In this document: positions 5,018-24,945 of the stretch, piece by piece
How the letters are laid out: each line of letters starts with the position of its first letter
Position numbering within the stretch: position 1 is the first letter of the stretch
Source of the DNA: Lactobacillaceae bacterium
GTDB lineage: Bacteria > Bacillota > Bacilli > Lactobacillales > Lactobacillaceae
DNA: 37,810 bases
NCBI GenBank assembly: GCA_031289615.1
Contig: JAITPD010000026.1
Span: forward strand, 1 to 37,810
Direction: 5' to 3'
Position numbers and translations under genes: made by a program
Notes under the pieces: generated by a model
Told to the model about the DNA's origin: nothing
Database searches by the model: none
What the model saw: only the letters and a program-made list of their open reading frames with translations

Positions 5018-6298
5018 ATGGCTTTAGATGTATTAAACGAACTCGCATGGCGTGATGCAATTAATCAGCAAACGGACGAAGATGGCTTGCGTGACATTAT
5101 TACCAAGGAACAAATTGGTGCATACGTTGGGATTGATCCAACTGGTGATTCAATGCACATTGGACACTTGATCCCATTTATGATTTTGAAGCGGTTCCAA
5201 ATGGCTGGCGTGCGTCCGGTGATTTTGATCGGTGGAGCAACTGGTTCAATTGGTGATCCATCTGGTAAGAAGCAGGAGCGGCAATTGCTTGACCAAGGTG
5301 CGATTGATCAAAACGTCGCAAAGATGACTCGCCAAATGGAAAAGTTGTTTGGCAAAGACGGTTTCACGGTGACCAACAACAATAATTGGTTGGGACAAAT
5401 GTCACTTGTCGATTTCTTGCGTGACTTTGGGAAGCTCTTCCCGATAAACGTAATGCTAGCCAAAGATGTGGTGGCATCGCGTTTGGAAGCTGGAATTTCA
5501 TTTACTGAATTCACGTACCAAATTCTACAAGCCATCGATTTCCATCACTTGTGGAAAGATGAACACGTTCGTTTGCAAATTGGTGGTTCTGATCAATGGG
5601 GAAATATCACTGGCGGAATTGACTTGATTCATCGCCTAGAAGGGAGTGATGCTCCAGCCTTTGGATTGACTGTGCCATTGTTGCTCAAGGCTGATGGGAC
5701 AAAGTTTGGTAAGACTGAAGGCGGGGCTGTTTGGCTTGACCCAGCAAAGACGACGCCATTTGAGTTCTATCAATTCTGGTTGAATACTGCGGATACTGAT
5801 GTTGAAAAGATGTTGAAGTATTTCACATTTCTGACTCAAGAAGAAATTGCTGGCTTGGTGCAAGAAATGGAAACGGACGCAGCTGCACGTAAGGCACAAA
5901 AGCGTTTGGCCGAAGAAGTGACCAAGTTTGTCCATGGTGAGCAAGCTGTTAAGACCGCTGAGTTAATGACGTCTGTGTTGTTTGGCAATGGGGATGTCGC
6001 TAGTTTGAAGGTTGATGAAGTGGCTGCTTTGGCTGGTAATGTCCCAAGTTTTGAATTCGACGGACAAGCTGTTGGAATTTTGGATTTGATTGTAAAGTCA
6101 GGTCTGGAAACTTCAAAGACGGCAGCGCGTAAGTCAGTTGCTGATGGTGCGATTCGTGTGAATGGTGAGCAGATTAAAGATGTTGAAGCCATTATCGATC
6201 CAACAAAAAAGTTTGATGGGCAATACGTCATTATCAAGCGCGGTAAGAAGAAGTGGGCGATTGGAAAGATTGCACAAGACATTATTTTCTTTAGCTAA
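5018..6298 (+). CDS. tyrS: tyrosine--tRNA ligase
   Basis: The 426-residue class I aminoacyl-tRNA synthetase charges tRNA-Tyr. The HIGH signature is at residues 47-50 within PTGDSMHIGHLIPF, and the KMSKS-type loop is KFGKT at about 229-233. The middle holds GGSDQWGNI, typical of bacterial TyrS. The C-terminal 70 residues form an S4 RNA-binding domain. Length fits the bacterial enzyme (about 420). AGGAGG lies seven bases before the ATG. Expression is controlled by the T-box just upstream. The terminator after the stop codon, and the first bases after it, reappear at two other places in the protease array. Confidence 0.97.
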   Translation: MALDVLNELAWRDAINQQTDEDGLRDIITKEQIGAYVGIDPTGDSMHIGHLIPFMILKRFQMAGVRPVILIGGATGSIGDPSGKKQERQLLDQGAIDQNVAKMTRQMEKLFGKDGFTVTNNNNWLGQMSLVDFLRDFGKLFPINVMLAKDVVASRLEAGISFTEFTYQILQAIDFHHLWKDEHVRLQIGGSDQWGNITGGIDLIHRLEGSDAPAFGLTVPLLLKADGTKFGKTEGGAVWLDPAKTTPFEFYQFWLNTADTDVEKMLKYFTFLTQEEIAGLVQEMETDAAARKAQKRLAEEVTKFVHGEQAVKTAELMTSVLFGNGDVASLKVDEVAALAGNVPSFEFDGQAVGILDLIVKSGLETSKTAARKSVADGAIRVNGEQIKDVEAIIDPTKKFDGQYVIIKRGKKKWAIGKIAQDIIFFS

Positions 6299-6317
6299 TC
6301 TGAAATTTAAAGTAGCG

Positions 6318-6343
6318 AGCAGAATTAATTTTCTGCTTTTTTC
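6318..6343 (+). terminator. terminator of tyrS (first copy of the repeated module)
   Basis: AGCAGAA and TTCTGCT enclose TTAATT and are followed by a T-rich run. The same hairpin arms recur at 9899 and 15122. Confidence 0.85.
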
Positions 6344-6498
6344 TTTGCAAAGAAGTGAGCTTGAGCGGCTGATAATCTTCCTGTATATTATGATTTTTTT
6401 AATTTGTGACAAGTTGTTTTCTTTATCGGGGCAAAAAGAATAAAAAATGTAATTTTGTCACTGAAATACGAAATAAAACACTTCTGGTTCTAAAATTG

Positions 6499-6559
6499 TT
6501 CACATATTTAATGATTTAAAGTCTAATTCAAAGTCCATAATTCGTTTTATCCGATAAAA
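6499..6559 (+). promoter_or_regulatory. A1-B1 promoter and palindromic operator
   Basis: TTCACA (6499-6504) and TCTAAT (6522-6527) are 17 bases apart and form a plausible -35/-10 pair; the same pair with the same spacing is present in all three module copies. Downstream, TTTTATCCGATAAAA (6545-6559) has perfect 7-base arms around one C. It would lie in the early transcribed region, a repressor-like position, or be an RNA hairpin. CATAAT (6536-6541) is an alternative -10 box. Confidence 0.55.
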
Positions 6560-6591
6560 AGGACAAAAATCAAATAAGGTTGGATGAGTTT

Positions 6592-8187
6592 GTGAATAAA
6601 AAAGTAAGTAAGATTTTGCTAGTGTGTGGTGCGGTAGTTTTGACGAGTGGAAGCAGTGTGGGTGTCGTAACCCAAGCTGCAAATGCGTGTCCGAATCAGG
6701 TTGGCAATGTTGCCAATAGCTCGTTGCCAGTTAAATATGATCCTCGGCCATGGTCGACGCCGATTCGCAATCAGCATGGAGTAAATGGAGAAGATCCTCA
6801 ATATATATGCTGGTCTTATTCTGGAAATGACATGTTGACGTACGCCAAGCAAAAGACGTTTGGTATTACGACGGTATATTCGCCTAATTATACGAATTTT
6901 GCGACGGCAACAAATGCCTTGACTGAGGGTGTTAATGCGACAAATAATCAAGAACACCGCCTAGATGGTGGAGGCCACCTTGCAGCAGCTTCTGTTTTTG
7001 CATTCATGGGTAATAATCCTGTTCGTGAATCTGATTTTTCTAGTGTTGATGCTGAAGGATTTGCAACTGGAAAGATTGCTTCAACACCAATTAGTTCTGC
7101 AGAATTAGATGTAGCACGGGCCAAGGCGGATAATTCGTATACAGTAACGGATATTGAACGCGTGGGTTATGAGAGTGGAGATGTTACACATACTGAGCAC
7201 ATCAATACATTGAAGGAAAGTATTTTAAAGTATGGTAGTGTTGGTTATGCCTATAATGCATATACCACACATGTTGGTCTGGATGATTATCTTTCTGGTT
7301 ATTTTGATGAAGAAAATAACGCGTTGAATACTGTTGCAGAAGGATACAATGGTATTCGCATAAGCACAATTAATCATGCGACATTAATTGTGGGATATGA
7401 TGATAATTATTCGAAAGATAAGTTTAATCCAGAACATCAGCCACAAAATAACGGAGCGTTTCTGGTTCGTAATTCTTGGGGGACTGAATTTGGAGAAAAT
7501 GGTTACTTCTGGGTGAGCTATGAAGATTATTATATTAAAGCATCAGTGGGTGCGTCGTCAGTTAAATTAGGAGTGAAACAAAGAGGATTTGAACAAAGCC
7601 TACATCAATCATCTCCCCGTAATGCACCATTTTATGTTGCTTATCCAGATGATTATTTGGGTGGAGGGAATCAAACAAACTACTCAAGTGGTAAAAACAG
7701 TGATATTGTCCTTGGAACTTATTTTCCAGCCAAAGATCATCAGCTGACCTTGAATTCCATTGCCATTGATACAGATTTGGATAAAGTTGACTATGAAGTG
7801 TATTTGGTGAATGGATCATTTTGCCAATCGACGACTTTGGAAGATTTAAAAGCGCAGGGAAAGTTGATTAAAAAAGGAATTGAAACTAAGCAAGGATTGC
7901 ATCGTAAGTCGATTAAACCTGTTGATATCCCAGCAAATCAAGACTATTCCTTGGTTATTGTCGAACGAGCTCCTGACAAGACAATTAACAATATGGCAGC
8001 TAGTTTGTTCGTTTCATGTAATGCGGTTGATACTTTTAATGTGAAAAATTCTTGGATTGGTTATATAAATAGTGACGAAATGATTACTTGGAATAACTTT
8101 GCTAATGTATCAACTCAAAATCCTTCCGGTGGAGCAAGAACTGGTTCTGTCATTCCATATCTCTTCGCCTTCAGCACCACCAAATAA
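6592..8187 (+). CDS. secreted papain-like cysteine protease A1 with lectin-like domain
   Basis: The protein has 531 residues from the GTG at 6592; all class A genes align at this MN(K/N)K start, and the upstream TTG at 6580 sits inside the ribosome binding site. A signal peptide (1-31) ends near QAANA, leaving Cys33 at or near the mature N terminus. The C1A peptidase domain runs from about 45 to 320: oxyanion-hole Gln61 (PIRNQ), nucleophile Cys73 (CWSYSG), His262 (NHATLIVGYDD) and Asn294 (NSWG). A beta-rich lectin-like domain follows (about 350-525; SDIVLGTYFPAKDHQLTLNS, DYEVYLV). There is no inhibitor-type propeptide and no wall-anchor signal. It is the first gene of a two-gene unit; B1 begins 12 bases after its stop. 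Its position beside tyrS suggests it is the founding A locus. Confidence 0.88.
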   Translation: MNKKVSKILLVCGAVVLTSGSSVGVVTQAANACPNQVGNVANSSLPVKYDPRPWSTPIRNQHGVNGEDPQYICWSYSGNDMLTYAKQKTFGITTVYSPNYTNFATATNALTEGVNATNNQEHRLDGGGHLAAASVFAFMGNNPVRESDFSSVDAEGFATGKIASTPISSAELDVARAKADNSYTVTDIERVGYESGDVTHTEHINTLKESILKYGSVGYAYNAYTTHVGLDDYLSGYFDEENNALNTVAEGYNGIRISTINHATLIVGYDDNYSKDKFNPEHQPQNNGAFLVRNSWGTEFGENGYFWVSYEDYYIKASVGASSVKLGVKQRGFEQSLHQSSPRNAPFYVAYPDDYLGGGNQTNYSSGKNSDIVLGTYFPAKDHQLTLNSIAIDTDLDKVDYEVYLVNGSFCQSTTLEDLKAQGKLIKKGIETKQGLHRKSIKPVDIPANQDYSLVIVERAPDKTINNMAASLFVSCNAVDTFNVKNSWIGYINSDEMITWNNFANVSTQNPSGGARTGSVIPYLFAFSTTK

Positions 8188-8199
8188 AGAGGAAACCTC

Positions 8200-9828
8200 A
8201 TGAAGCAATTATATGTAAAAAAAGTGTTAGCGACAATCATGATTACCACAAGTCTTTCCGGATGTGTGGCATCAGCGGACGTGACAACAATCTCGGCTGG
8301 AAGTCATCCACAATTCGGCCAAAAGACAGGTGAATTAGTTCAGCCGGCGCGTAAAATTGATAATGTTAATTTGAAGAACTGGCATTATCACCAAAATCAA
8401 AGTACTCTACCAGCTAAATTTGATCCTAGAGGTACGAACAAAGCCACGCCAATTCAAGATCAATTTGAAACGGGATTATGCTGGAGTTATGCGGGGTCAG
8501 ATATTTTAGCAATTAACAAGCTTAATAAAACTGGCATTCAAAGTCTATTTTCAACCAACTATTATAATTACATGTTTGCTAGCAATGCTTTTAAAGATTT
8601 AGAAAATCCGTTTGGTATTGAATATCGTGGATTAGGTGCTGGTGGCGTTGAAAGTTGGCCAACAATGGCGGCTTTGATGGGTTATAACCCCGCCAAGGAA
8701 AGTGATTTTGCGAGCTTGAATGAATCAGGTCAAGGCTCACAAGACTTGGCTACTCAATACGATGTGACTTCGGATGCGTTTTATCAAACACCAACTGATC
8801 AGTCATTTTCAGTCAATGGTTTCTTGCAAAATGATGGTGCTTATGATGACGCGTCAGCCCAGGCGGTCGTTGATAATACCAAAAAGTTAATCAAGGAAAA
8901 TGGGTCAGTTGGCTATCACTTTGATGGTGACATGCTATTCGCTGATCAACTAGATTACGGACAAGCAGTTTACAATACGGAAACGAGTGCCATCAATTTA
9001 CCGATGGATTATCCAAAATACGTAAGCTATACGGTCAAAGAATCTGGCGAAACAGGTATGTTTACTGCCCGTGAAGCTAACCATGCTGTGACAATCGTTG
9101 GTTGGGATGATAATTACAGTAGAGATAATTTTGTGGATGGTGCCAAGCCAAATCAAAATGGAGCCTTCATAGTAAAAAATTCATGGGGAACTAGCTGGGG
9201 TGAAAAGGGCTATCTCTACGTTTCATATGAAGACTACTTTATATTAGAAGGATTGCTGACGACGGCTAAGATTGCCGCACCAACAGCAGATACTCTAATT
9301 ACTTCAGCAGATGCACCAGCTTCATCGGATTGGTCATTTGAAACTGACTCGCTCTACACTGGAGCACAGGTTGTATTAGCAAACGTTGTTGAGGTGCCTG
9401 AAGATAGTTCAGCAACGAAACTTTCTGCGATTAGCTTGGCAGCGATTAGCAATAATGCTCAATATACAGTTTATTATGTTGATCACGAAATCGATGCGCA
9501 AACCTTGACCACGCCTGAACAAGTGGCGGAAGTTGGTACGATGCTAAATAGTGGCATCGCATCAAATCATGGTCAAATCAAAATTAACGTGCCGAAACAA
9601 GATGTTGTTGCTGGTCAAAAGATTACCTTAATTGCGGTAGAACAAGATCCGAATGGCTTAGTTGATGATGGGGCTGGATTCCAAATTCAACGCGAGGGAG
9701 CTCGGACCGCGACTATCGCGGATAAGGGACATAATTTGGTAGCTTGGCAACAGGCTGATGGAACCTATTCATGGCTGGATCTTGCACGACGAGGGTTCAA
9801 AACGTATCTGGGTGGTTATATCCATTAA
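8200..9828 (+). CDS. papain-like cysteine protease B1 with lectin-like domain, possible lipoprotein
   Basis: This 542-residue class B protease has catalytic residues Gln88 (PIQDQ), Cys94 (CWSYAG), His295 ([11 protein letters not shown]) and Asn327 (NSWG). The lectin-like domain occupies about 380-540 and ends with the class B signature AWQQ-DGTYSWLDLARRG-KTYL. The signal peptide differs from the other B proteins: residues 19-22 read LSGC, a good lipobox, so Cys22 may be lipid-modified; a signal peptidase I site (VASA, then Asp27) follows close behind and competes. AAAGAGGAAA lies before the ATG, 12 bases after A1, so the two are surely co-transcribed. It is the most divergent of the five B proteins, consistent with an old A1-B1 pair. 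Confidence 0.88.
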   Translation: MKQLYVKKVLATIMITTSLSGCVASADVTTISAGSHPQFGQKTGELVQPARKIDNVNLKNWHYHQNQSTLPAKFDPRGTNKATPIQDQFETGLCWSYAGSDILAINKLNKTGIQSLFSTNYYNYMFASNAFKDLENPFGIEYRGLGAGGVESWPTMAALMGYNPAKESDFASLNESGQGSQDLATQYDVTSDAFYQTPTDQSFSVNGFLQNDGAYDDASAQAVVDNTKKLIKENGSVGYHFDGDMLFADQLDYGQAVYNTETSAINLPMDYPKYVSYTVKESGETGMFTAREANHAVTIVGWDDNYSRDNFVDGAKPNQNGAFIVKNSWGTSWGEKGYLYVSYEDYFILEGLLTTAKIAAPTADTLITSADAPASSDWSFETDSLYTGAQVVLANVVEVPEDSSATKLSAISLAAISNNAQYTVYYVDHEIDAQTLTTPEQVAEVGTMLNSGIASNHGQIKINVPKQDVVAGQKITLIAVEQDPNGLVDDGAGFQIQREGARTATIADKGHNLVAWQQADGTYSWLDLARRGFKTYLGGYIH

Positions 9829-9898
9829 GAATGGCAATGAAAATTTAATATTGTACAAGATAGGATTGGCCTTAGCTAATCTGAAATGTAAATGAACG

Positions 9899-9928
9899 AG
9901 CAGAATTTAGGTTCTGCTTTTTCTTTTT
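9899..9928 (+). terminator. terminator after B1
   Basis: AGCAGAA and TTCTGCT enclose TTTAGG, followed by TTTTCTTTTT. It closes the A1-B1 unit and is a copy of the tyrS terminator. Confidence 0.85.
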
Positions 9929-10078
9929 GCTCAAAAACACGGTGATTTGATTGTTTTAACTGTATATTGTGATAATTTTAATTTGTGGCAAGGAGTTTTC
10001 TTTTATGAGACAAAAACAGAAGATAGTGTAATAAACATTAGTTAATTATGAAATAATCGGCATTAAATTCTTAAACAC

Positions 10079-10139
10079 TTCACATATAACCGCTTTTATT
10101 TTCTCATTTACAGCTCATAATTCGTTTTATCCGATAAAA
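10079..10139 (+). promoter_or_regulatory. A2-B2-A3 promoter and palindromic operator
   Basis: TTCACA (10079-10084) and TCTCAT (10102-10107) are 17 bases apart. The palindrome TTTTATCCGATAAAA is at 10125-10139, identical to that before A1, while much of the surrounding spacer differs, so the boxes look selected. Confidence 0.55.
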
Positions 10140-10173
10140 AGGAAAAAAATAAAAAGCAAGGTTGGATGAGTTT

Positions 10174-11793
10174 ATGAATAAGAAGATGAGTAAGATGTTG
10201 CTTGCGTGTGGTGCGTTAGTTTTGACAAGTGGTAGTGGAGGAATTCTTTCACAAACTGTTCAGGCGTGTTTGAATCCAGCAACGAATATTGCAAATAGCA
10301 AACTACCCTCCAAATATGATCCTCGTCCTTGGTCGACGCCGATTCGCAATCAGCATGCTCCTAATGGCGATAACCAAAATTTGTGTTGGAGCTATTCTGG
10401 TAACGATATGTTGACGTATGCCAAGCAAAAAACGTTTGGTATTACGACGGTGTATTCACCAAATTATACGAATTATGCGACGGCATGGGATGCCATGGAA
10501 TATGAAGATAGTACACCTAGTAGTCGGCATTATGTTACTAATCCAACAAGTAATCCTGAACATCCCTTGAATTGGGGAGGTCATGTTGCAGCTGCTTCTA
10601 TCTTTGCCTTGTTAGGCAATAATCCGGTTCGTGAATCTGACTTTTCCAGTACTGATGAGAACGGATTTGCAACTGGAACTGTTGCTTCAACGCCAATCAG
10701 TTCCGCAGAGCTAGATGCTGCTCGATCTAAGGCAGATAATTCGTATAGTGTGACTGATGTTAATCGGGTTGGGTATGAAGATGGAATTACAACCCACGAA
10801 GGCCACATTAAAGAACTAAAAAAAGCAATTATCAACAATGGAAGCGTTGGTTATGCTTTCAATGCATTGACTCTTCACGTTGGTCAAGAAGACTATATGC
10901 CTGGATATTATGATGAAAAAAACAACGCGCTTAACACTATTGAGGATGATAAAAATGAGATTGAATATATTAATCATGCGACGTTAATTGTGGGATATGA
11001 TGATAATTATTCGAAAGACAAGTTTAATCCAGAACATCGCCCACAAAATAATGGAGCATTCTTGGTGCGGAACTCATGGGGCACTGAATTTGGAGAAAAT
11101 GGGTACTTCTGGGTCAGCTATGAAGACTATTATATTCAAGTATCGGTTGGGGCATCATCTGTTGAAATTGGGCAAAAGTTAAGTGGTATTGCACAAAGTT
11201 TACAAAAAACGACCCCACAAAATAATCCATTTTATGTGGCTTATCCTGACTGGAGTAAATATAAAGATTTTGAAAATCAAAGTGAGATTGAAAAAAATCA
11301 AGACAGTGATATTGTTCTTGGAACTCATTTCCCAGCAAAAGATCACAAGTTGATTTTAAATTCAGTTGCGATTGATACTGATTTAGATGACGTGGATTAT
11401 GAAGTGTATTTGGTTGATGGCGCATTTAGTCAATCTGAAAAGTTGACTGAACTAAAGACGCAGGGGCAGTTGATTAAAAAAGGGCATGAAGTTAGGCAAG
11501 GAATCCATCGAAAAACTATTAAACCCGTTGACATTCCAGCAGATCAAGATTACTCATTGGTAGTCATTGAAAAAGCGACTGATAAGAGCATCAATAATAA
11601 AGCAGCATCATTATTTGTTTCAAATAACTCTAAGGGAAGTTATCGACAAAATTCATGGATGGGTTACTTGCAAAGCGATGAGAAAATTAAATGGATTGAT
11701 TTAGGTAGTGTGGCTACTCGATCAACAGGTGGTGCTTCTGCAACCTCATCTGGCGTTCTCCCTTACATCTTTGCCTACAGCACCGCAGAATAG
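10174..11793 (+). CDS. secreted papain-like cysteine protease A2 with lectin-like domain
   Basis: This class A protease has 539 residues from the ATG at 10174. AAGGTTGGA precedes it; the in-frame TTG twelve bases earlier lies within that site. The signal peptide (1-31) ends TVQA before Cys32. Catalytic set: Gln60, Cys71 (LCWSYSG), His268, Asn300 (NSWG). It carries the longest insertion of the class after the TNYATA segment (about residues 107-127, rich in Ser, Thr, Pro and Asn) and a distinct loop in the lectin-like domain (WSKYKDFENQSEIEKN) just before DSDIVLGTHFPAKDH. It is first in the A2-B2-A3 unit, with 32 bases to B2. Confidence 0.88.
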   Translation: MNKKMSKMLLACGALVLTSGSGGILSQTVQACLNPATNIANSKLPSKYDPRPWSTPIRNQHAPNGDNQNLCWSYSGNDMLTYAKQKTFGITTVYSPNYTNYATAWDAMEYEDSTPSSRHYVTNPTSNPEHPLNWGGHVAAASIFALLGNNPVRESDFSSTDENGFATGTVASTPISSAELDAARSKADNSYSVTDVNRVGYEDGITTHEGHIKELKKAIINNGSVGYAFNALTLHVGQEDYMPGYYDEKNNALNTIEDDKNEIEYINHATLIVGYDDNYSKDKFNPEHRPQNNGAFLVRNSWGTEFGENGYFWVSYEDYYIQVSVGASSVEIGQKLSGIAQSLQKTTPQNNPFYVAYPDWSKYKDFENQSEIEKNQDSDIVLGTHFPAKDHKLILNSVAIDTDLDDVDYEVYLVDGAFSQSEKLTELKTQGQLIKKGHEVRQGIHRKTIKPVDIPADQDYSLVVIEKATDKSINNKAASLFVSNNSKGSYRQNSWMGYLQSDEKIKWIDLGSVATRSTGGASATSSGVLPYIFAYSTAE

Positions 11794-11825
11794 AAAACAG
11801 AAATTAGAAAACAGAGGAAAATTAT

Positions 11826-13475
11826 ATGAAAAAGCATCAATTACAAAGGTTGGTTGCCGGAATGATGGTAACCACAATTCTTAGTAGCACAGTTGCATCA
11901 GCCGACGTGACTACCAATTATCTCGATAAGTCACCAGTGATCGGTGAACAAAATAGCGGATGGGTCAAGCCTGCGCGAAATGTTCATCAGAAGTTTAATT
12001 CAAAGAAGTGGCACTACAAGCGTCAACAATCTGCTTTGCCTGCCACTTATGACCCACGAAACACCAATCAAGTGACTCCAGTTCGTGATCAATATGAAAC
12101 GGAGCTTTGTTGGAGTTACTCTGGAACTGATGTTTTGGCAATGAGTAAGTTGAAGAAGACCGGAATTCAAACCGCGTTTTCACCAAATTATTTCAACTAT
12201 ATGTTTGCTGAGAATGAATATACAGATGCAACTAATCCACTCCAGGTTCAGTTTCGTCTATTAGGAGATGGTGGTTATGAAAATTGGCCAATCATGGCAG
12301 GGCTGCTTGGTCATAATCCTGCAACTGAAGAAGCATTTCCATCACTTGATGCAAATGGTCATGGGACACAAGAATTGGCAACCGCACCGATTACTCAGAC
12401 TGCGTTTAATCAAATTCCAACTGATAAGTCGTTTACGGTCGAAGGTTACGTCCAAAATGATGGAGCGTTCTCAGATGAATCAGCTCAAGCCATTGTGGAT
12501 AACACCAAGCAAATGATTCATGATAATGGCGCTGTTGGCTATCATTACAATGCATACTTTGCCATGTCAGATCAACTTGATTATGAAACCCCAGCATATA
12601 ATCCAGAGACGTATGCTTTGAATATTCCGTTTGATTTCCCAAATTCTGTGAATGCCACTGTTAAGAAGACAGGTGATAAAATCAGTATTAGTCCTTGGGG
12701 CGCCAACCATGCCGTGACGATTGTTGGATGGGATGATACCTTTAGTAAAGACAAGTTTGCTGATGCGGTTAAGCCAGCACAAGACGGAGCGTTCTTGGTG
12801 AAGAATTCATGGGGAACCACTTTTGCTGATAACGGTTATTTCTGGGTTTCTTATGAAGATTTCTACATTTTGGAAGGAATGATCGCATCTGCCAAAATTG
12901 GAACACCAACAAATGAGAAGCTGGCTACTTCTGCTAGTTCACCTGCTTCATCAGATTGGACGTTTGAAACTGATAGCGAATACACTGGAAAGCAAGTTGT
13001 CTTGGCAAATCAAGTTCAAATTCCAGCGGATGCAACCAACCCCAAGATCTCAGCAATTAGTTTGCCTGCAATTACAAAGGGTGCCAAGTATTCAGTATAT
13101 TATGTTGATCATGCATTTAATATTGATGAGGAAGAAGGAAATTTGCAGACTGAGGCTCAAATTAAAGCAATTGGAAAGAAGATCAAAAGTGGCGTTGCAG
13201 TTGATCACGGTCAAATCAAGGTGAATGTTCCAACTCAAAAGGTGACAGCTGGGCAAACAGTGACATTGATTGCGGTTGAACAAGATCCAAATGGGGATGT
13301 TAATGACGGAGCTGGGTTCCAAATTCAATTGGTTGGTGGAACAGATGGCAGTCAAGCAACCAAGGCTAATCAGTATCAAAACATGGTGGCTTGGCAACAA
13401 GATGATGGAACTTACGAGTGGTATGATTTGGCTCATCGTGGGTATAAGACTTACCTTAGCGCATATGTAAAGTAG
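11826..13475 (+). CDS. secreted papain-like cysteine protease B2 with lectin-like domain
   Basis: This 549-residue class B protease is the longest of the nine, owing to a short acidic insertion ([12 protein letters not shown]) in the lectin-like domain after YYVDHAF. The signal peptide [21 protein letters not shown] ends at VASA before Asp27. A stretch of about 50 residues then leads to [15 protein letters not shown], where the peptidase domain begins. Catalytic set: Gln89, Cys95, His295, Asn327. There is no wall anchor. Together with A3 behind it, the gene forms a B-A block that resembles B5-A4, including the linker between the genes. Confidence 0.88.
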
Positions 13476-13511
13476 TTATTACAAAATAAAAAAATAGGAT
13501 TAGATGAATTT

Positions 13512-15107
13512 ATGAATAAGAAGTTGAAAAAAGGTTTGTTAGCGTGTGGCGCGCTAGTCTTGACGAGTGGAAGTGGTGTGGGTCTTGTTGCTCAAACGGC
13601 TCAAGCTTGTTTGTTTCCGCCAATGGATATAAATGTAAATTGGTTGCCAGCTAAGTATGATCCTCGGCCATGGTCAACACCGATTCGCAATCAACATGGT
13701 AATAATGGAGTTGATCCTCAACAATTATGCTGGAGTTATTCTGGTAACGATATGTTGACGTATGCCAAGCAAAAGACGTTTGGGATTACAACGGTGTATT
13801 CACCAAATTATACGAATTATGCGACTGCAAATGATGCGTTGACGGATGGACACAATCCGACAAGAAATCAGGAGCATGTTTTGAACGATGGAGGCCATAC
13901 CGCAGCAGCTTCTGTCTTTGCATTCATGGGTAACAATCCAGTTCGTGAATCTGATTTTTCTAGTGTTGATGCTAACGGATTCGCAACAGGAACGGTTGCA
14001 ACCACTAAGATTACTTCTGCAGAATTAGATGCAGCACGAGCTAAGGCTGATAATTCATATACTGTAACGGACATCGAGCGTGTTGGATATGAATATGGCG
14101 ACGTGACACATGCTGAGCACATCAAAGCATTAAAGGAAAATATTTTAAAGTATGGTAGTGTGGGATATGCTTTTAATAGTTATTCAGTTACTACTAGCGG
14201 GTCAAAGTATTTTGATGAAAAAAATAGTGCTCTAAATACGTCTGCTAATAAATTATCAGAATCGGATGGGACAGGGGATGTACCTATTTCTTTGAGTTCT
14301 ATAACCCACGCAACATTAATTGTTGGTTATGATGATAACTATTCCAAGGAAAAATTTAATGCTTATCAACGACCTGAAAATAATGGTGCGTTCTTGGTCC
14401 GTAATTCATGGGGCACTGATTTTGGAGAAAATGGCTATTTTTGGGTGAGCTATGAGGATTACTTTATTGCTGCTTCTGTTGGTGCTGCCTCTGTTAAATT
14501 GGCTCCTAAACAATCAGGGGTTGAACAAGGTATCCAAAAATCTTCGCCAAGGAATGATTTATTTTATGTTTCGTATCCTAATGGTAAGGCTAACCGTGAA
14601 GAGTATGCTAATAATCAAGACAGTGATATTGTACTTGGAACTCATTTTCCAGCAAAAGATCACCAGTTGACTTTAAATTCAGTTGCGATTGATACTGATT
14701 TAGATGATGTGGATTATGAAGTGTATTTGGTTGATGGTGCATTTAGTCAATCAGAAACTTTGATAGATTTAAAAGCACAGGGTAAGTTGATTAAAGAAGG
14801 ACATGAAGCTAAGCAGGGGCTCCATCGTAAAGCAATTAAGCCTGTAGAAGTTTCAGCAAATCAAGATTACTCATTGGTAGTCGTTGAGAAAGCTAAGGAC
14901 AAGACGATCAATAACAAAGCGGCAAGTTTGTTTGTTTCAAGTAACGCTGATGAAGGATATTTGCGTGAAAATTCCTGGATTGGTTATCTAAAAAATGATG
15001 AGACGATCACTTGGAGTAACTTTTATTATGTGTATACACGTACTTCCATAGGACGTAATTCTTCTGGCGTTATCCCTTATATCTTCGCTTACAGTACCAC
15101 AGAATAA
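13512..15107 (+). CDS. secreted papain-like cysteine protease A3 with lectin-like domain
   Basis: This 531-residue class A protease starts at the position that sets the class A start by alignment. The signal peptide ends AQTAQA before Cys33, followed by LFPPMDINVNWLPAKYDPRPW. Catalytic set: Gln61, Cys73, His266, Asn298. The residue before the catalytic His is Thr (ITHATLIVGYDD), where the other A proteins have Asn. The loop before it (about 228-262) is unlike the other A copies, lacking the HVG(L/Q) segment and containing Ser/Thr-rich sequence. The linker to B2 contains TTATTACAAAATAAA, also found after B5. It is last in its unit; a terminator follows within 45 bases. Confidence 0.88.
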   Translation: MNKKLKKGLLACGALVLTSGSGVGLVAQTAQACLFPPMDINVNWLPAKYDPRPWSTPIRNQHGNNGVDPQQLCWSYSGNDMLTYAKQKTFGITTVYSPNYTNYATANDALTDGHNPTRNQEHVLNDGGHTAAASVFAFMGNNPVRESDFSSVDANGFATGTVATTKITSAELDAARAKADNSYTVTDIERVGYEYGDVTHAEHIKALKENILKYGSVGYAFNSYSVTTSGSKYFDEKNSALNTSANKLSESDGTGDVPISLSSITHATLIVGYDDNYSKEKFNAYQRPENNGAFLVRNSWGTDFGENGYFWVSYEDYFIAASVGAASVKLAPKQSGVEQGIQKSSPRNDLFYVSYPNGKANREEYANNQDSDIVLGTHFPAKDHQLTLNSVAIDTDLDDVDYEVYLVDGAFSQSETLIDLKAQGKLIKEGHEAKQGLHRKAIKPVEVSANQDYSLVVVEKAKDKTINNKAASLFVSSNADEGYLRENSWIGYLKNDETITWSNFYYVYTRTSIGRNSSGVIPYIFAYSTTE

Positions 15108-15121
15108 AATGTAAATGAACG

Positions 15122-15150
15122 AGCAGAATTTAGGTTCTGCTTTTTCTTTT
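15122..15150 (+). terminator. terminator after A3
   Basis: AGCAGAA and TTCTGCT enclose TTTAGG and are followed by a T-rich run. It is the third copy of the tyrS-type terminator. Confidence 0.85.
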
Positions 15151-15301
15151 TGCTCAAAAGAACGGTATTTTGATTGTTTGACCCGTATATTGTGATAATT
15201 TTAATTTGTGGCAATGATTTTGCTTTTGTGATACGAAAATAGAAGAATATGTAATAAATACTACTAAATTGTGAAATAATACACGTTAAATTCTTAAAGG
15301 A

Positions 15302-15360
15302 TTCACAGATAAACATATTTAAATTCTCATTTGTAGCTCATAATTCACGTTATCCGATAA
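15302..15360 (+). promoter_or_regulatory. promoter and operator ahead of the third protease group
   Basis: TTCACA (15302-15307) and TCTCAT (15325-15330) are 17 bases apart. The operator is shortened to TTATCCGATAA (15350-15360), with 5-base arms. With the A gene behind it broken, this promoter would drive B3-B4-B5-A4 through a leader of about 300 bases. Confidence 0.5.
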
Positions 15361-15395
15361 AAAGGACAAATAAAGAATTGGAGTAAGGTCAATTT

Positions 15396-15626
15396 ATGAA
15401 CAACAAGATAGTGAAAAAAATACTAGCGTGTGGTGCGCTGGTTTTGACTGGTTAGGTAGTGCAAGAGTTTTATCTAAGGCTAAATAATGCTGTTTATTTC
15501 CAATAATTGATTCAAATGTGAATCATTTATCAAATACACATTACTTTAGATTGTGGTAAATTTTTACACTTAATCAATCGGCATTATGTTGAGATTCATC
15601 CCTATATCATCGCAAACAGAACACAA
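15396..15626 (+). pseudogene. decayed class A protease gene (start and end remnants only)
   Basis: The ATG at 15396 opens MNNKIVKKILACGALVLTG and then a stop, matching the class A signal peptide MNKKLKKGLLACGALVLTSG. Out of frame, the sequence continues as CLFPIIDSNVNHLS, matching CLFPPMDINVNWLP of A3. About 100 bases later, ATCCCTATATCATCGCAAACAG matches the class A tail IPYIFAYSTTE with small deletions and a lost stop codon, followed by AGAGG as before B1. Roughly 1.3-1.5 kb, including the whole catalytic domain, is missing. The gene behind it keeps its own ribosome binding site and start. Confidence 0.85.
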
Positions 15627-15639
15627 AGAGGAAAATAAA

Positions 15640-17274
15640 ATGAAAAAGCATCAATTACAAAAGTTAGTCGCCGGAATGATGGTAACCACCATTCTTAGCA
15701 GTGGTGTTGCATCTGCCAGTGTCACTACAGGACATTTTGAAAAAGTTCCAACTCCTACTGGGCAACAGAGTGAATGGGTTACGCCAATTCGAAATGATCA
15801 TCAATTTAATTCAAAGAAGTGGCAATACAAGCATCAGCAGGTAGCGTTGCCAGCAGCATATGATCCACGTAATACTAATCAAGTTACTCCAATTCGTGAC
15901 CAATATGAAACAAGCATGTGCTGGGATTATACTGGGACGGATCTTTTGGCAATGAGTAAGTTAAAGAAGACTGGAATTCAAACGGCATTTTCACCAAACT
16001 ACTTTAATTATATGTTTGCTGAGAATGCATTTACTGATAATACGGTTAATCCATTTTCAGTATTGAATCGTCAATTAGCAGCGGGTGGAATGACTAAGTG
16101 GCCAATTATTGCCGGCATTATGGGATATAATCCGGCGACTGAGGATGATTTCCAAACGGTTGATGCCGATGGTCACGGGACAATGGAACTTGCAACTAAA
16201 GAAATTACCCAGACTGCATTTAATCAAACTCCAACAGATCAGTCATTTGCTGTTGAAGGATATGTGGAAAACGAAGGTGCATTTTCAGATGAATCAGCAC
16301 AATCAGTTATTGATAATACAAAGCAATTAGTTAATGACTACGGGGCGATTGGATATGATTTTAATGCATATTTCGTACTTCCAAATCGAGTTACATTTAA
16401 AAACCCAGCCTACAATCCTGAAACTTTCGCTTTAAATGTCCCATCTGATTATCCAGATTCTGTAGATGCCATTAAAACTGCGACTGGCGAGGATGTCACG
16501 ATCAGCACTTGGCGCGCTAATCATGCTACAACTATTGTCGGTTGGGATGATAATTTCAGCAAGGACAAGTTTGCCAAGGATGTTCAACCGGCTCAAGATG
16601 GTGCCTTCTTAGTTAAGAATTCATGGGGAACTGTTTGGGGCGATGATGGTTATTTCTGGGTTTCATACGAAGATTTCTTTTTGCTAGAAGGCTTAGAAGG
16701 AACAGCTAAGATTGGTCAACCAACGAACGAAAAGTTGATTACTTCAGCCGATGCGCCTGCTTCATTTCACTGGGAGCTCGAGGATGACGAACAATACACT
16801 GGTAATCAAGTTGTATTTTCAAATGTGTTAGACATTCCAAGTACTAGTGAAAATGCAAAGTTCTCAGCAATTACTTTGCCAGCTATTGCTAACGACGCAA
16901 AGTATTCCGTTTATTATGTAGATCATGAAGTTGACGCAAAGACTTTGACGACTGAGGACCAGGTTAAACAAGTCGGAACGAAAATCAAGAGTGGTGTTGC
17001 TGAAAATCATGGTCAGGTAAAGGTAAATGTTCCAACACAAAAGCTTCCAGCTGGACAGAAGGTTACGCTGATTGCGGTTGAGCAAGATCCAAATGGTGCT
17101 GCAGAAGATGGGGCTGGTTTCCAAGTTCAACGTCCTGGAGCAAGTTCGCCAACTGAAGCGGATGCCGGAAAGAACATGGTAGCATGGCAACAAGAAGATG
17201 GCACATACGAATGGTTGGATTTTTCAACTCAAGAAGAAGGATACAAGACGTATTTGGGTCTCTATTTGAAGTAA
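15640..17274 (+). CDS. secreted papain-like cysteine protease B3 with lectin-like domain
   Basis: This class B protease has 544 residues from the ATG at 15640. Reading further upstream in frame to 15586 only adds translated debris of the decayed A gene, and AGAGGAAAATAAA stands before 15640. The signal peptide ends VASA before Ser27. Catalytic set: Cys94 (MCWDYTG, with Asp after Trp, unlike the Ser/Thr in the others), His295, Asn327, with Gln in PIRDQ. The lectin-like domain is nearly the same as in B4 ([41 protein letters not shown]). B4 follows after 37 bases. Confidence 0.88.
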
Positions 17275-17311
17275 TTTTGGTTATTACAAAACAAAAAATT
17301 GAGGAAATTAA

Positions 17312-18940
17312 ATGAAAAAGCATCAATTACAAAAGTTAGTTGTCGCACTGATGTTAACTACAATTCTTAGCAGTGGTGCTACATCCGCCAATGTTGTTCC
17401 AGGGCATGTTATAAAAGATCCAATTCTTGGGGGGCAGCAAAGTGAATGGGTCACACCAGCGCGAAATGTTCATCAATTTAATGCAAAGAAGTGGCAATAT
17501 AAGCATCAACAAACGGCTTTGCCAGCCACTTACGATCCGCGTAATACTAACCAAGTTACACCAATTCGCGATCAATATGAAACTGGATTATGCTGGACAT
17601 ATTCTGGAACTGATATTTTGGCAATGAGCAAGTTAAAGAAGACCGGAATTCAAACAACCTTCTCGCCAAATTATTTCAACTATTTGTTTGCTGATAATGC
17701 ATTTACTGATAACCCAATTAATCCGCTTGCAGTAAGTGGGCGAAAGTTAGCACAGGGTGGAACGTCAAGTTGGACAATCATGGCTGGTGTGTTAGGTTAC
17801 AATCCAGCAACTGAAGATGATTTTCAAACGCTTGATGCTGACGGGCATGGAACAAAAGAACTTGCTACTAAAGAAATTACCCAAACAACATTTAATCAAA
17901 CTCCAACAGATCAGTCGTTTTCGGTCGAAGGCTACGTTCAAAATGATGGAGCTTTCTCAGATGAATCTGCTCAAGCTGTCGTTGATAATACAAAGAAACT
18001 GATTTCTGAAAATGGAGCAGTGGAATATAGTTTCAATGCATATTTCTTGTTGGCGGATCGACTTACGTTTGAAAAACCAGCCTATAATGTTGAAACTGGT
18101 GCGTTGAATCTTCCATCTGATTATGAAAGTTCTATCACGGCGACCAAAAATTCGAACGGCGAAGATATTAAGATTAGTACTTGGAGTCACAATCATGCTA
18201 CGACAATTGTCGGTTGGGATGATAATTTCAGCAAGGGAAAATTTGCTAAGGATGTTCAACCAGCACAAGACGGCGCTTTCTTAGTTAAGAATTCATGGGG
18301 CACAGAATGGGGCGAAGACGGCTATTTCTGGGTTTCATATGAAGATTATTACTTGTTAGAAGGTTTGCTTGGAACTGCCAAGGTTGGTCAACCAACAAAC
18401 GAAAAGTTGATTACTTCAGCCGATGCACCTGCCTCATCTGATTGGGGTCTTGAAACTGACGATCAGTATACTGGTAAGCAAGTGGTCTTAGCAAACGTGT
18501 TGGACATTCCAAATACTCAAACAAATGCAAAGTTCTCAGCGATTAGTTTGCCGGCCATTTCAAATGGAGCAAAGTATTCAATTTATTATGTAAATCATGA
18601 AGTTGATGCAACGACTTTGACGACTGAGGACCAAGTTAAACAAGTTGGGAAGAAGATTAAGAGTGGTGTTGCTGAAAATCATGGTCAGGTTAAGGTGAAT
18701 GTCCCAACTCAAAAGCTTCCAGCCGGACAGAAGGTGACATTAATTGCAGTTGAGCAAGATCCAAACGGTATTTCAGAAGATGGAGCAGGGTTCCAAATTC
18801 AAATACCAGGAGCAAGTTTGCCAACTGATGCGGATGCTGGAAAGAACATGCTGGCATGGCAACAAGAAGATGGCACATACGAATGGCTTGATATTGCAAC
18901 TGAGGGAGTTAAAACTTACTTGGGTCTCTATTTGAAGTAA
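17312..18940 (+). CDS. secreted papain-like cysteine protease B4 with lectin-like domain
   Basis: This 542-residue class B protease is the closest relative of B3 across most of its length, so the pair looks like the most recent tandem duplication. The signal peptide [21 protein letters not shown] ends near ATSA before Asn27. Catalytic set: Cys94 (LCWTYSG), His295, Asn327, with Gln in PIRDQ. The mature chain starts with about 45 residues ending [19 protein letters not shown], which all B proteins except B1 share closely. TTGAGGAAA stands before the ATG. The linker to B3 again holds TTATTACAAAA. Confidence 0.88.
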
Positions 18941-18970
18941 TTCTAGCTATTACAGAATAAGGAAAATAAA

Positions 18971-20605
18971 ATGAAAAAACACCAATTACAAAAATTAGTT
19001 GCCGGGATGATAGCAACCGCAATTTTTAGTAGCAGCGTTGCGTCAGCTGATGTAACGCCTGGTTATCTCGATAAGTCACCAATGATCGGTGAACAAAATA
19101 GTGAATGGATCAAGCCCGCGCGAAATGTTCACCAACAATTTAATTCAAAAAAGTGGCATTACAAACATCAACAATCTGGGTTGCCGGTAACTTATGATCC
19201 ACGTAATACTAATCAGGTAACACCAATTCGTAATCAATACGAGACAAATCTTTGCTGGAGTTACACTGGGACGGATCTTTTGTCTATGAGTAAACTGAAG
19301 AAGACGGGAATTCAAACCATCTTTTCACCAAATTACTTCAACTATATGTTTGCGTCAAATTCATTTACTGATGCTACTGAAAATCCATTTTACGTAAAGG
19401 GACGCAGACTAGGTTCTGGAGGATTGGAAAATTGGGCAATCACGGCAGGTCTACTTGGTTATAATCCAGCAACAGAAGAGAATTTCCAAACGCTTGATGC
19501 AACCGGTCGTGGAACGCAAGAGTTGGCAACGCAGCAAATTGCATTGGATGCATTTAATCAGGTTCCAACAGATCAATCATTTACCGTTGAAGGTTACGTA
19601 CAAAATGATGGGGCGTTTTCTGATGAATCAGCTCAAGCCATTGTAGATAATACAAAACAAATGATTCATGAGAACGGCGCTGTTGGTTATGATTTTAATG
19701 CAGAATTTGTAGTGCCAGATCTCCTTGATTACGATACTTCAGCCTACAACGGAGATACCTTTGCTTTGAATATTCCATTTGGTTTTAAAAGTGTGGTCAA
19801 TGCCACGGTTAAGAAAACGGGAGAAGAGATTCAACTTAATACGTGGAGTTCTAATCACGCAGTTACCATTGTTGGTTGGGATGACACATTTAGCAAAGAG
19901 AAGTTCGCTAAGGATGTAGAACCAGATCAAAATGGAGCATTCTTAGTTAAAAATTCATGGGGAACTGATTGGGGTGATAATGGTTATTTCTGGATTTCTT
20001 ATGAAGACTTCTATCTATTGGAGGGTTTGTCTGGAAGTGCTAAAGTTGGAACACCGACAAATGAAAAATTACTCACTTCAGCAAATGCACCTGCTTCATC
20101 AGATTGGACGTTTGAAACTGATGAAAAATATACTGGAAAACAAATTGTCCTAGCAAATCAAATCGATATTCCAGCGGATGCAACAGATCCAGAAATATCA
20201 GCAGTTAATTTGCCTGCAATTACTAAGGGTGCAAAATATTCAGTTTATTATGTAGACCAAGCAATTGATGCGGCAACTTTGACAACTGAAGATCAGATTA
20301 AAACTGTTGGAAAGAAGATTAAAAGTGGAGTTGCAAATATTCACGGTCAAATCAAGTTGAATATTCCAAATCAAAAAGTGACAGCTGGACAAAGGATTAC
20401 ATTGATTGCAATTGAACAAGATCCAAATGGTGATGAGCAAGATGGAGCAGGATTCCAAATTCAGTGTGTGGGTGGAAGTAATGCAACTAAGGAAGATGAT
20501 CAGTATAGGAACATGGTGGCATGGCAACAAGATGATGGAACGTATACGTGGTTTGATTTAGCTCGGAAACAATATAAGACGTATTTTGGAGCTTATGTAA
20601 AGTAG
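18971..20605 (+). CDS. secreted papain-like cysteine protease B5 with lectin-like domain
   Basis: This 544-residue class B protease resembles B2 most in its N-terminal part ([16 protein letters not shown]) and in its lectin-like domain ([15 protein letters not shown]). The signal peptide ends VASA before Asp27. Catalytic set: Cys95 (LCWSYTG), His296, Asn328; the segment before the cysteine reads PIRNQYETN, with Asn where most B proteins have Asp. AAGGAAAATAAA precedes the ATG. A4 starts 36 bases after the stop, joined by the same linker as between B2 and A3. Confidence 0.88.
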
Positions 20606-20641
20606 TTATTACAAAATAAAGAAATGGGGTTAGATGACTTT

Positions 20642-22246
20642 ATGAATAATAAGCTCGGTAAAGTGTTGCTAGCGTGTGGTGCGCTAGTCTTGATGAGTGG
20701 CAGCAGTGTGGGGCTTGATACTCAAACGGCTCAAGCTTGTTTGTTTCCGGCAATTGAAGTGAATGCAAATTGCTTGCCAGTTAAGTATGATCCTCGGCCT
20801 TGGTCGATTCCAATTCGTAATCAACATGGTAATAATGGAGAAGATCCACAGCAATTATGCTGGAGTTATTCGGGAAATGACATGTTGACGTATGCCAAGC
20901 AGAAGACCTTTGGAATTACGACTGTGTATTCGCCAAATTATACGAATTATGCGACGGCAGTGAATGCGTTGACGGATGGAGCTAATCCGACAAGTAATCA
21001 GGAGCATGTTTTGAATGGTGGTGGGCACATTGCTGCTGCTTCTGTCTTTGCATTCTTAGGGCATAATCCGGTTCGTGAATCAGATTTTTCTAGCGTTGAT
21101 ACTGACGGATTCGCGACAGGAACAGTTGCTTCAACGCCAATCACTTCAACGGAATTAGATGCAGTTCGGGCTAAGGCTGATAATTCATATACTGTAACGG
21201 ATATTGAACGGGTTGGATATGAATATGGTGAAGTGACCCATGCTGAGCACATTAAAGCGTTGAAGGAAAATATTTTAAAGTATGGTGGTGTCGGATATGC
21301 GTTTAACGCCAAGACACTTCATGTAGGTCAAACGGATTATAAACCTGGGTATTTTGACGAAAAAAATAATGCATTAAATACTGTTCAAGGATTCGTCGAT
21401 AGTCAAGGCAATAATCCAATTGTGCTGAGTAACATTAATCATGCGACATTAATTGTTGGTTATGACGATAATTATTCAAAAGATAAATTTAATCCGGAGC
21501 ATCAGCCACAAAATAACGGAGCGTTTCTGGTTCGTAATTCTTGGGGAACTGAATTTGGAGAAAATGGGTACTTCTGGGTGAGCTATGAAGATTATTACAT
21601 TCAAACATCTATTGGCGCTTCGTCAGTTAAATTGGGAGCAAAGCAAAATGGGTTTGAGCAAAGTTTGAACCAATCATCAACACGTAATACACCGTTTTCT
21701 GTTGCTTTTCCAAATGACGCTTCATTGGAAAGGCCAATGTACTATTCAAAAGACCAAGACAGCGACATTGTCCTTGGAACTCATTTTCCGGCAAAAGATC
21801 ATAAGCTGACTTTAAACTCAGTAGCAATTGATACGGATTTAGATGACGTCGATTATGAGGTTTACTTGGTTGATGGAGCATTTAGCCAATCGGAAACGTT
21901 GACAGATTTGAAAAGCCAGGGTCGGTTGATTAAAAAAGGACATGAGGCTAAGCAAGGTCTTCATCGTAAAGCAATTAGGCTCGTTGATGTTCCAGCCAAT
22001 CAAGATTATTCACTTGTAGTCGTTGAGCAAGCTAAGGACAAGACGATCAACAACAAAGCGGCAAGTTTGTTGGTTTCAAGTAATGCTGTTGATCATTATC
22101 AGGCATCAAATGCATGGATGGGCTATTTACAAAATGATGAAAATATCGTGTGGAATAATTTCTATAATGTAAAAACTCAAATTCCGCTTGGAAAAGATTC
22201 CGTTAACGTTCTCCCATATCTTTTCGCATACAGCACCACAGAATAA
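20642..22246 (+). CDS. secreted papain-like cysteine protease A4 with lectin-like domain
   Basis: This class A protease has 534 residues from the ATG at 20642, the position matching the other A genes; an in-frame ATG at 20624 lies in the ribosome binding region (ATGGGGTTAGATGA). The signal peptide ends AQTAQA before Cys33; a second early cysteine (Cys44) is unique to this copy. Catalytic set: Gln61, Cys73, His267, Asn299. The N-terminal third resembles A3, while the stretch around the catalytic Asn is almost identical in DNA to A1, a mosaic pattern. It is last in the array and is followed by a strong terminator. Confidence 0.88.
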   Translation: MNNKLGKVLLACGALVLMSGSSVGLDTQTAQACLFPAIEVNANCLPVKYDPRPWSIPIRNQHGNNGEDPQQLCWSYSGNDMLTYAKQKTFGITTVYSPNYTNYATAVNALTDGANPTSNQEHVLNGGGHIAAASVFAFLGHNPVRESDFSSVDTDGFATGTVASTPITSTELDAVRAKADNSYTVTDIERVGYEYGEVTHAEHIKALKENILKYGGVGYAFNAKTLHVGQTDYKPGYFDEKNNALNTVQGFVDSQGNNPIVLSNINHATLIVGYDDNYSKDKFNPEHQPQNNGAFLVRNSWGTEFGENGYFWVSYEDYYIQTSIGASSVKLGAKQNGFEQSLNQSSTRNTPFSVAFPNDASLERPMYYSKDQDSDIVLGTHFPAKDHKLTLNSVAIDTDLDDVDYEVYLVDGAFSQSETLTDLKSQGRLIKKGHEAKQGLHRKAIRLVDVPANQDYSLVVVEQAKDKTINNKAASLLVSSNAVDHYQASNAWMGYLQNDENIVWNNFYNVKTQIPLGKDSVNVLPYLFAYSTTE

Positions 22247-22260
22247 AATAATTACAAAAG

Positions 22261-22289
22261 CACTGCTGAAAATTTTTGGCAGTGTTTTT
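22261..22289 (+). terminator. terminator of the protease array
   Basis: CACTGC pairs with GCAGTG around an AT-rich loop and is followed by TTTTTCTTTT. It differs from the tyrS-type terminators after B1 and A3. Confidence 0.85.
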
Positions 22290-22422
22290 CTTTTAATATT
22301 TCCATTTCATGTCAGGTTTATTAAAATAAGCACGACTTTATGACTATTAATTCACAAATGAAAACTTAGCGGCAAAAAGGCATCCGTAATTCCGGACTAA
22401 ATTCATAAATTAACGAGAAATG

Positions 22423-22480
22423 TACGATAAAACGGACAAAAACAAATCAAAGCGACAATAAATGTCCGGCATAATGGACA
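22423..22480 (+). promoter_or_regulatory. motif shared with the protease promoters, upstream of the LRR gene
   Basis: CGATAAAACGGACAAAAAC (about 22424-22442) closely matches CGATAAAAAGGACAAAAATC before A1. The palindromic first arm (TTTTATC) is missing. A TGTCC/GGACA inverted repeat with an 8-base centre follows (22463-22480). This suggests, without proving, that the LRR gene and the protease units share a regulator. Confidence 0.4.
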
Positions 22481-22481
22481 A

Positions 22482-22495
22482 TGTAAACGGTTACA
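22482..22495. promoter_or_regulatory. cre site (CcpA binding)
   Basis: TGTAAACGGTTACA fits the cre consensus TGWNANCGNTNWCA at every position. It ends five bases before the -35 box of the LRR gene, so carbon catabolite control by CcpA is likely; from position alone either activation or repression is possible. Confidence 0.8.
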
Positions 22496-22500
22496 AATAT

Positions 22501-22528
22501 TTGAGTAGGTTACTTTGGTTCTTATAAT
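22501..22528 (+). promoter_or_regulatory. promoter of the LRR protein gene
   Basis: TTGAGT (22501-22506) and TATAAT (22523-22528) are 16 bases apart, followed by AGAAAGG and the ATG at 22548. The -10 box shows that an upstream in-frame start at 22515 cannot be used. Confidence 0.75.
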
Positions 22529-22547
22529 AGAAGAAAGGTTGTTTATT

Positions 22548-24275: not shown

Positions 24276-24328
24276 TACCCTTGTTAAAGCGCATTAATTC
24301 CTACTTCAGCATAAAAAGTAACTTTATG

Positions 24329-24357
24329 TTGAGAACGCTCCTTTGTTATGGTAAAAT
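24329..24357 (+). promoter_or_regulatory. secG promoter
   Basis: TTGAGA and TAAAAT are separated by 17 bases, 38 bases before the secG ATG. Confidence 0.7.
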
Positions 24358-24395
24358 ATACCAATAGATTAAACGTCTAAAGGAGGCGCCGGATA

Positions 24396-24635
24396 ATGTA
24401 CAGTATCTTACTAACTGCTATGATCATTGTTGGCGTGTTGATTATTTTAGCCGTGTTGATGCAACCATCAAAGCAGCAAGATGCTTTATCTGCTTTGTCA
24501 GGTAGTGGTGGTGGTGACTTGTTCGCTACCCAAAAAGCACGTGGTTTTGAAGCTGTAATGCAACGTATTACAGCAATCCTAGGCGCAATTTGGTTCATTC
24601 TCGGATTAGCTTTGGTTTATCTTTCAGCACACTAA
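24396..24635 (+). CDS. secG: protein translocase subunit SecG
   Basis: The 79-residue protein has two membrane segments (about 2-20 and 55-75) joined by a loop containing SALSGSGGGDLFATQKARGFE, the hallmark of SecG. It joins SecY and SecE in the membrane channel and helps preprotein export, so it is relevant to the many secreted proteins encoded just upstream. AAAGGAGG lies before the ATG. In related genomes secG is followed by rnr and smpB, as here, though a terminator and 500 bases of repeats separate them in this window. Confidence 0.95.
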   Translation: MYSILLTAMIIVGVLIILAVLMQPSKQQDALSALSGSGGGDLFATQKARGFEAVMQRITAILGAIWFILGLALVYLSAH

Positions 24636-24710: not shown

Positions 24711-24945
24711 TATTGGCCTTTGTTTAATCAGCTTCGCTAAAGATTCTTTACGTTTCGGATTTGCCCTGCACGATTCATGGCGAATGGCAAAATAATTTGC
24801 CAATTTCACGGCACTAAAGCACGCGTGAAAAAATTTTCGCCTAGATTCGGCAAGGGCTGGCCATCCGACGACAGAATCGCTTCGCTGATTAATTCAGGGC
24901 CGATATTATAATGTAAAGCCTTGGTCATTTTATTTAAAGCGTGAT
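24711..24945 (+). repeat. intergenic repeat element, copy 1
   Basis: The segment 24761-24890 matches the complement of 37675-37810 with about ten differences by eye, and weaker similarity extends to about 24940. The ends are imperfect inverted repeats of about 26 bases (left ACAATATTGGCC near 24714 and TTAATCAGC; right GCTGATTAA near 24886 and GGCCGATATTAT). An inner hairpin GGCAAA/TTTGCC lies at about 24786-24801. It has no ORF. It looks like a mobile or repeated non-coding element of MITE or REP type, but no target-site duplication is visible. Confidence 0.75.

Follow-up and report, generated by a model that had tools for sequence, protein, structure and literature searches.

Nine Cwp84-type cysteine proteases of two classes encoded in one array of a Lactobacillaceae genome

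Nine protease genes and one relic in three units

The DNA analyzed here, called the window, is a stretch of 37,810 nucleotides from a Lactobacillaceae genome (G000). Between positions 6592 and 22246 its plus strand contains nine intact open reading frames, which encode proteins of 531-549 amino acids with the starts chosen here. All nine proteins matched Peptidase_C1 (PF00112) above the Pfam cut-off (lowest score 32.4 versus 20.7 bits). The catalytic residues Cys, His and Asn are present in each of them, the oxyanion Gln is invariant, and the charged and then hydrophobic stretch at each N-terminus was judged by eye to be a signal peptide. A cell-wall anchor domain or CWB2-type cell-wall-binding repeats gave no Pfam match at E values up to 0.05 in any of the nine proteins, and NCBIfam has no name for any of them. 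The length, the shared architecture and the purifying selection described below rule out that the array is a product of chance.

The genes belong to two classes, A and B, and are arranged in three units. Unit 1 consists of A1 (6592-8187, GTG start, PF00112 score 37.4 bits) and B1 (8200-9828, 53.2 bits). Unit 2 consists of A2 (10174-11793, 41.9 bits), B2 (11826-13475, 47.5 bits) and A3 (13512-15107, 32.4 bits), and unit 3 contains B3 (15640-17274, 45.8 bits), B4 (17312-18940, 55.6 bits), B5 (18971-20605, 53.5 bits) and A4 (20642-22246, 33.8 bits). Class assignment rests on the tree described below; B5 was in addition modelled and matched to Cwp84. At the beginning of unit 3 lies the relic of a class A gene (15396-15455, plus strand, family D10). 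It consists of MNNKIVKKILACGALVLTG, i.e., 19 codons of a signal-peptide start, followed by TAG, and it is in register with the four A starts. The preliminary description, made from the sequence alone, had proposed nine intact genes and one relic in the order A1-B1, A2-B2-A3, (relic)-B3-B4-B5-A4. The open frames, the PF00112 matches, the catalytic residues and the relic sequence confirmed the genes, and the unit plan holds.

A 28-base promoter-like or operator-like element, CATAATTCGTTTTATCCGATAAAAAGGA, was found on the plus strand upstream of all three units, and none is expected by chance (0.00). The element is exact at 6536-6563 (unit 1) and 10116-10143 (unit 2), and it has three mismatches at 15339-15366 (unit 3), where a 17-base core is exact. 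Genome-wide, the exact core occurs at the three unit sites only; 13 further matches have two or three mismatches, and two of these are the unit sites themselves on the opposite strand. The spacers between intact neighbours within the units are 12-37 bases long and contain no terminator-like site on the plus strand. Terminator-like hairpins were found on this strand at the end of unit 1 after B1 (9898-9919), with the same sequence at the end of unit 2 after A3 (15121-15142), and at the end of unit 3 after A4 (22256-22289); single sites are weak evidence, because the scan yielded 17 sites versus 12.8 (sd 4.3) in shuffled sequences. Based on the shared element, the spacing and the hairpins, the three units are probably under common control, and co-transcription within the units would be expected. 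The shared element may instead have been copied along with the units.

A start context TTGGATGAGTTT or similar lies just 5' of the class A starts (6580-6592, 10162-10174, 13500-13512 and 20630-20642), and the ribosome sites of class B genes are of the GAGGAAA or AGGAAA type. Because the start contexts differ, A and B may be translated differently.

Two protease classes and their likeness to Cwp84

A tenth, divergent A-like gene is present on contig C5 of the window genome (5083-6669, minus strand). Its product is 42% identical to A2 over residues 46-540, and no B gene is present on this 14-kb contig. A tree of 27 proteins, rooted at the midpoint, also included class A and class B proteins of a second genome, G007. 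The six class B proteins (support 100/100) were separate from the seven class A proteins including that of C5 (100/99), so the proposal of two classes holds. As both classes occur in G007, the split between A and B is older than the two species. Both classes together with L051, a protein of Streptococcaceae bacterium Pc512_bin8, form one group (97/99). Within class A, A1-A4 cluster together (99/97), as do G7A1 and G7A2 of G007 (100/98), a grouping that could reflect either separate duplications or homogenisation.

The two classes have distinct signatures. In all seven class A proteins the stretch from the oxyanion Gln to the catalytic Cys is five to six residues longer than in class B. They also have an additional Cys, located 6-12 residues ahead of the LPxKYDPR motif, and are without a long pro-region. 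In A2, A3, G7A1 and G7A2 this N-terminal extra Cys and the catalytic Cys are the sole Cys residues past the signal stretch. In all six class B proteins the signal peptide is separated from the protease domain by a pro-region of roughly 45 residues, in which N, K, W and Y are invariant (NxKxWxY); a zymogen stage may be expected for B but not for A. L051 is the nearest protein outside class A in the tree (90/90) and has a pro-region and a short Gln-Cys spacing, as does class B; class A therefore probably lost the pro-region and gained the insertion. The L051 gene is cut by the contig end, and a second, truncated relative is present elsewhere in the same genome. Other Pc512 bins are given in PMC11707648 as coming from the termite Prorhinotermes canalifrons.

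A further difference concerns the substrate pocket. The legend in PMC4089489 gives Thr317 of Cwp84 among the residues of the S2 pocket. At this position, mapped by sequence alignment, Glu was found in all six class B proteins and Ala, Val or Thr in six of seven class A proteins; the Glu of G7A2 counts against a class A pocket rule. Class B would thus have an acidic S2 pocket and a preference for basic P2 residues, and class A a small or neutral S2 pocket. It is very doubtful that class A represents a novel type of C1A protease that has given up its long propeptide, in which the active site is controlled by the class-specific Gln-Cys loop and an N-terminal Cys able to form a disulfide, and which, beside class B, makes A-B-A a portable, self-regulating two-protease unit moving between genomes. 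A lipoprotein nature of class A was rejected: by eye, the Cys past the signal stretch is without a good lipobox in six of seven proteins, and only G7A2 fits.

For every gene a signal peptide, the C1A residues and a lectin-like domain had been proposed. The first two stood, the signal peptide as judged by eye, and the lectin-like domain needed other support. The Lectin_like family PF18560 missed its cut-off everywhere (best score 23.9 versus 27 bits) and was listed at E values up to 0.05 for B1, B3 and B4 only. The model of B5, the modelled protein of the array, has a two-domain fold of protease and lectin-like domain, and a comparison with VIA revealed a structural match to Cwp84 of Clostridioides difficile (PDB 4ci7, 4d59), which supports the domain in B5 and bears out the earlier likeness to Cwp84. 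A profile comparison of the C-terminal domains of class A and class B (probability 95, E 3e-8, 134 columns) extends the lectin-like domain to class A. The calcium-site residues of the Cwp84 lectin-like domain are named in PMC4089489.

The identity between B5 and Cwp84 is about 24% over the aligned residues, and several features differ. The array proteins are without cell-wall-binding repeats, unlike Cwp84, and they have the canonical Asn of NSWG where Cwp84 has SSWG. Moreover, the array has nine copies in two classes, and class A has the loop insertion and is without a long pro-region. Among the Cwp84-type C1A-lectin-like proteases, the nine proteins form a new variant with two classes that has been multiplied into three probably co-regulated units. 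C1A-lectin-like proteins of Listeria, Enterococcus-like genera (this genus name is a guess), Lactococcus and Clostridia were matched by the A3 profile in the protease domain, several over most of the profile, and their copy numbers are lower bounds. The ones included in the tree lie outside the group of A, B and L051, and several are extended at the C-terminal end (open frames of 700-1589 codons).

Growth, probable insertion site and occurrence of the array

Units 2 and 3 have a common 271-base leader (83%), and the pair B2-A3 corresponds to the pair B5-A4, the spacings being 7145 and 7130 bases. Unit 3 appears to be a duplicated A-B-A unit, of which the first A is now the relic, with B3 and B4 in addition. 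The dN/dS ratio was 0.10-0.20 in all 16 within-class pairs of the window, while the whole-gene dS ranged from 0.82 upward and was often near saturation. The nine genes have thus long been retained under purifying selection. A recent duplication or an assembly duplication is ruled out by the whole-gene dS of 0.8 or more between window pairs. The divergence of paralogues reaches 54% identity (B1 versus B5), and the loop before the catalytic His belongs to the most variable stretches.

Exchange among the A genes is suggested by third-position sites. Columns 357-436 of A3 follow A2 and not A4 (20 of 23 sites versus 56 of 163 outside), and columns 283-398 of A4 follow A1 and not A3 (34 of 45 versus 50 of 140 outside), each with 0 of 200 permutations. 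Among the 14 mosaic tests, four gave 0 of 200, two gave 3 of 200 and eight gave 26 or more of 200 (without correction for multiple testing). GC3 was 0.28-0.34 for the nine array genes; for six other window genes it was 0.40-0.47 in five cases and 0.26 in one.

The array lies between tyrS and a short gene in front of rnr (24396-24635) that we take to be secG. An RNase R tree was calculated with 27 of the 28 genomes of the genus sample, G004 being omitted since its gene was recovered in fragments. It groups G000 with G015, G006, G009 and G011 (100/100), and G007 with G018 (95/94). The comparison of the tyrS-secG loci (L236-L239) revealed that in G006, G009 and G011 tyrS is directly followed by secG and then rnr. 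An 18-kb island made up of the array and an LRR_5 gene separates tyrS from secG in G000 (6298-24396). In G015 (L236) other genes are present, and the 3' end of tyrS is directly repeated (4263-4368 and 5915-6007). Judged by gene order, this interval, which is empty in three relatives and filled in G000 and G015, is an insertion hot spot, and the array would have been inserted there or repeatedly lost. An integrase was not recognised.

The LRR_5 gene (22515-24275) lies directly 3' of the array. Its product is secreted-looking and has BspA-type leucine-rich repeats; the gene has its own start and no terminator in common with unit 3. A 127-base stretch before rnr (24763-24889) recurs inverted at the contig end (37684-37808, 91% identity) and probably represents a dispersed repeat at which the assembly broke off.

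The combined profile of A and B had matches in three of the 28 genus genomes, namely G000 (ten genes), G007 (three) and G015 (one distant relative), and no C1A match to this family was found in the other 25. The relative in G015 (L033:432-2334) is spread over two reading frames, with the catalytic Cys in one and the His in the other. With G000 counted, matches were found in 9 of 397 genomes of the family (four of them just fragments, E 1e-4 to 1e-3), 14 of 395 of the order and 12 of 398 of the class; copy numbers in these samples are lower bounds, as at most three candidates were scored per genome, and other genera may also have arrays. In G007 the three genes form an A-B-A unit (L048:5421-10347) amid unrelated genes. 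A contig scan with an alignment of the family yielded 71 loci, of which only L050 (= G007) has both classes, and a scan with A2 alone found no relative; such scans may leave out records of the window's own genome.

G007 corresponds to JAITQG010000046.1, "Lactobacillaceae bacterium isolate Pq454_bin64". Pc512_bin108 and Hm464_bin179, isolate names in the same style, are termite-gut genomes according to PMC11707648. By analogy, Pq454 would likewise come from a termite gut; among the matches listed, no paper ties it to a termite.

Plasmids and phages were rejected as vehicles: tblastn with B5 matched 4 of 72,556 plasmid and 5 of 50,697 phage records, and query coverage stayed below 80% in every case. 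Six of these nine matches had 25-30% identity, and three were short patches of 43-58%. The preliminary description knew of no such array in lactic acid bacteria, and none was described among the literature matches listed, subscription journals being mostly outside the scope of the search.

Possible functions of the two classes

The preferred explanation, which we judge could about equally well prove right or wrong, is that the array is a co-regulated module of secreted Cwp84-fold endoproteases that breaks down external proteins, with the two classes cutting complementary sites and the paralogues being diversified. The nine proteases would be secreted and proteolytic on external proteins. Their differing predicted S2 pockets and differing activation would give A and B complementary cleavage sites, and within each class the paralogues would have diversified. 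The resulting peptides could be taken up by Opp-type transporters, and the array would have been gained by insertion at the tyrS-secG hot spot.

Extracellular protein digestion is favoured because the three genomes with C1A relatives are the three with large Peptidase_S8 genes, although this association comes from few, related and thus non-independent genomes. Peptidase_S8 was found in five of the 28 genus genomes, i.e., G000 and G007 with six genes each and G015, G009 and G013 with one each (short in the last two), and in none of the other 23. The open frames are 1360-1806 in length for the six of G000, 1350-1779 for five and 909 for one of G007, and 1559 for G015. PF06280 (fn3_5) was present in all six S8 genes of G000 and a PA match at E up to 1e-3 in five, two of them above the cut-off; by eye, no LPXTG was seen in the last 60 residues of the six proteins. 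Lactocepin-type cell-envelope proteinases (Peptidase_S8 with fn3_5) likely serve the same purpose of extracellular protein digestion, but are unrelated to the array proteins in fold and catalytic type. Opp-type peptide-binding proteins number three in G000 and six in G007, and they do not discriminate, because 24 of the 28 genus genomes have them.

It had also been proposed that A and B act together, and this claim stood in part. The linked module recurs, as A-B-A is present at a different locus in G007, the sole other genome found with both classes, and the predicted pockets differ. However, these are two genomes only, the A-like gene on C5 of G000 stands without B, and the co-occurrence of the classes in every unit is in part inherited, because the units seem to be duplicates of an A-B-A block that already existed. 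The two classes most likely stand for complementary specificities, and an A-B complex or mutual processing is possible. An obligate partnership, in which the two classes assemble into a complex or one of them activates its counterpart, would be in line with A-B-A at two unrelated loci in two species, with the pro-region that is long in B and absent in A, and with the close spacing in probable operons. Yet tandem duplication explains the adjacency, the ratio is not fixed (three B and one A in unit 3), and the solitary gene on C5 has no partner on its contig, so that we regard such a partnership as quite unlikely.

The closest solved relative, Cwp84, cleaves the S-layer precursor SlpA according to PMC4089489. 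In analogy, the array could mature surface proteins of the cell itself, with particular ones matched to each paralogue or class, and the adjoining LRR_5 surface-type gene would fit. However, no CWB2-type anchor was found in any of the nine proteins (Pfam), and a housekeeping role is hard to reconcile with nine diversified copies that most of the genus does not have, which makes surface maturation unlikely. We give the same low probability to targets other than food, i.e., host gut proteins, host defence peptides or competing microbes. The termite-gut style of the G007 isolate name, the patchy presence, the position in an insertion hot spot and the variable loop before the catalytic His speak for such targets, and the lack of a recognised toxin, immunity or delivery gene beside the array and the mainly purifying selection on whole genes speak against them. 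Lastly, redundant copies could simply raise the amount of enzyme without a division of labour, as block duplication and mosaic exchange among the A genes might suggest; this is highly improbable, since class-specific signatures are kept in two species and paralogues have diverged to 54% identity (B1 and B5).

If the preferred reading of exoproteolysis is true, the array adds a cysteine-type route as the second one next to that of lactocepin-like proteinases. Unrelated loci of two species contain the linked two-class module, and the array is a natural panel of diverged paralogues for changes in papain-like specificity and activation. In total, the window genome has ten C1A and six subtilase genes. 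The latter lie on contigs C4, C21, C22, C36, C37 and C53 (L182-L187); G007 also has six, and the other 26 genus genomes have none or one.
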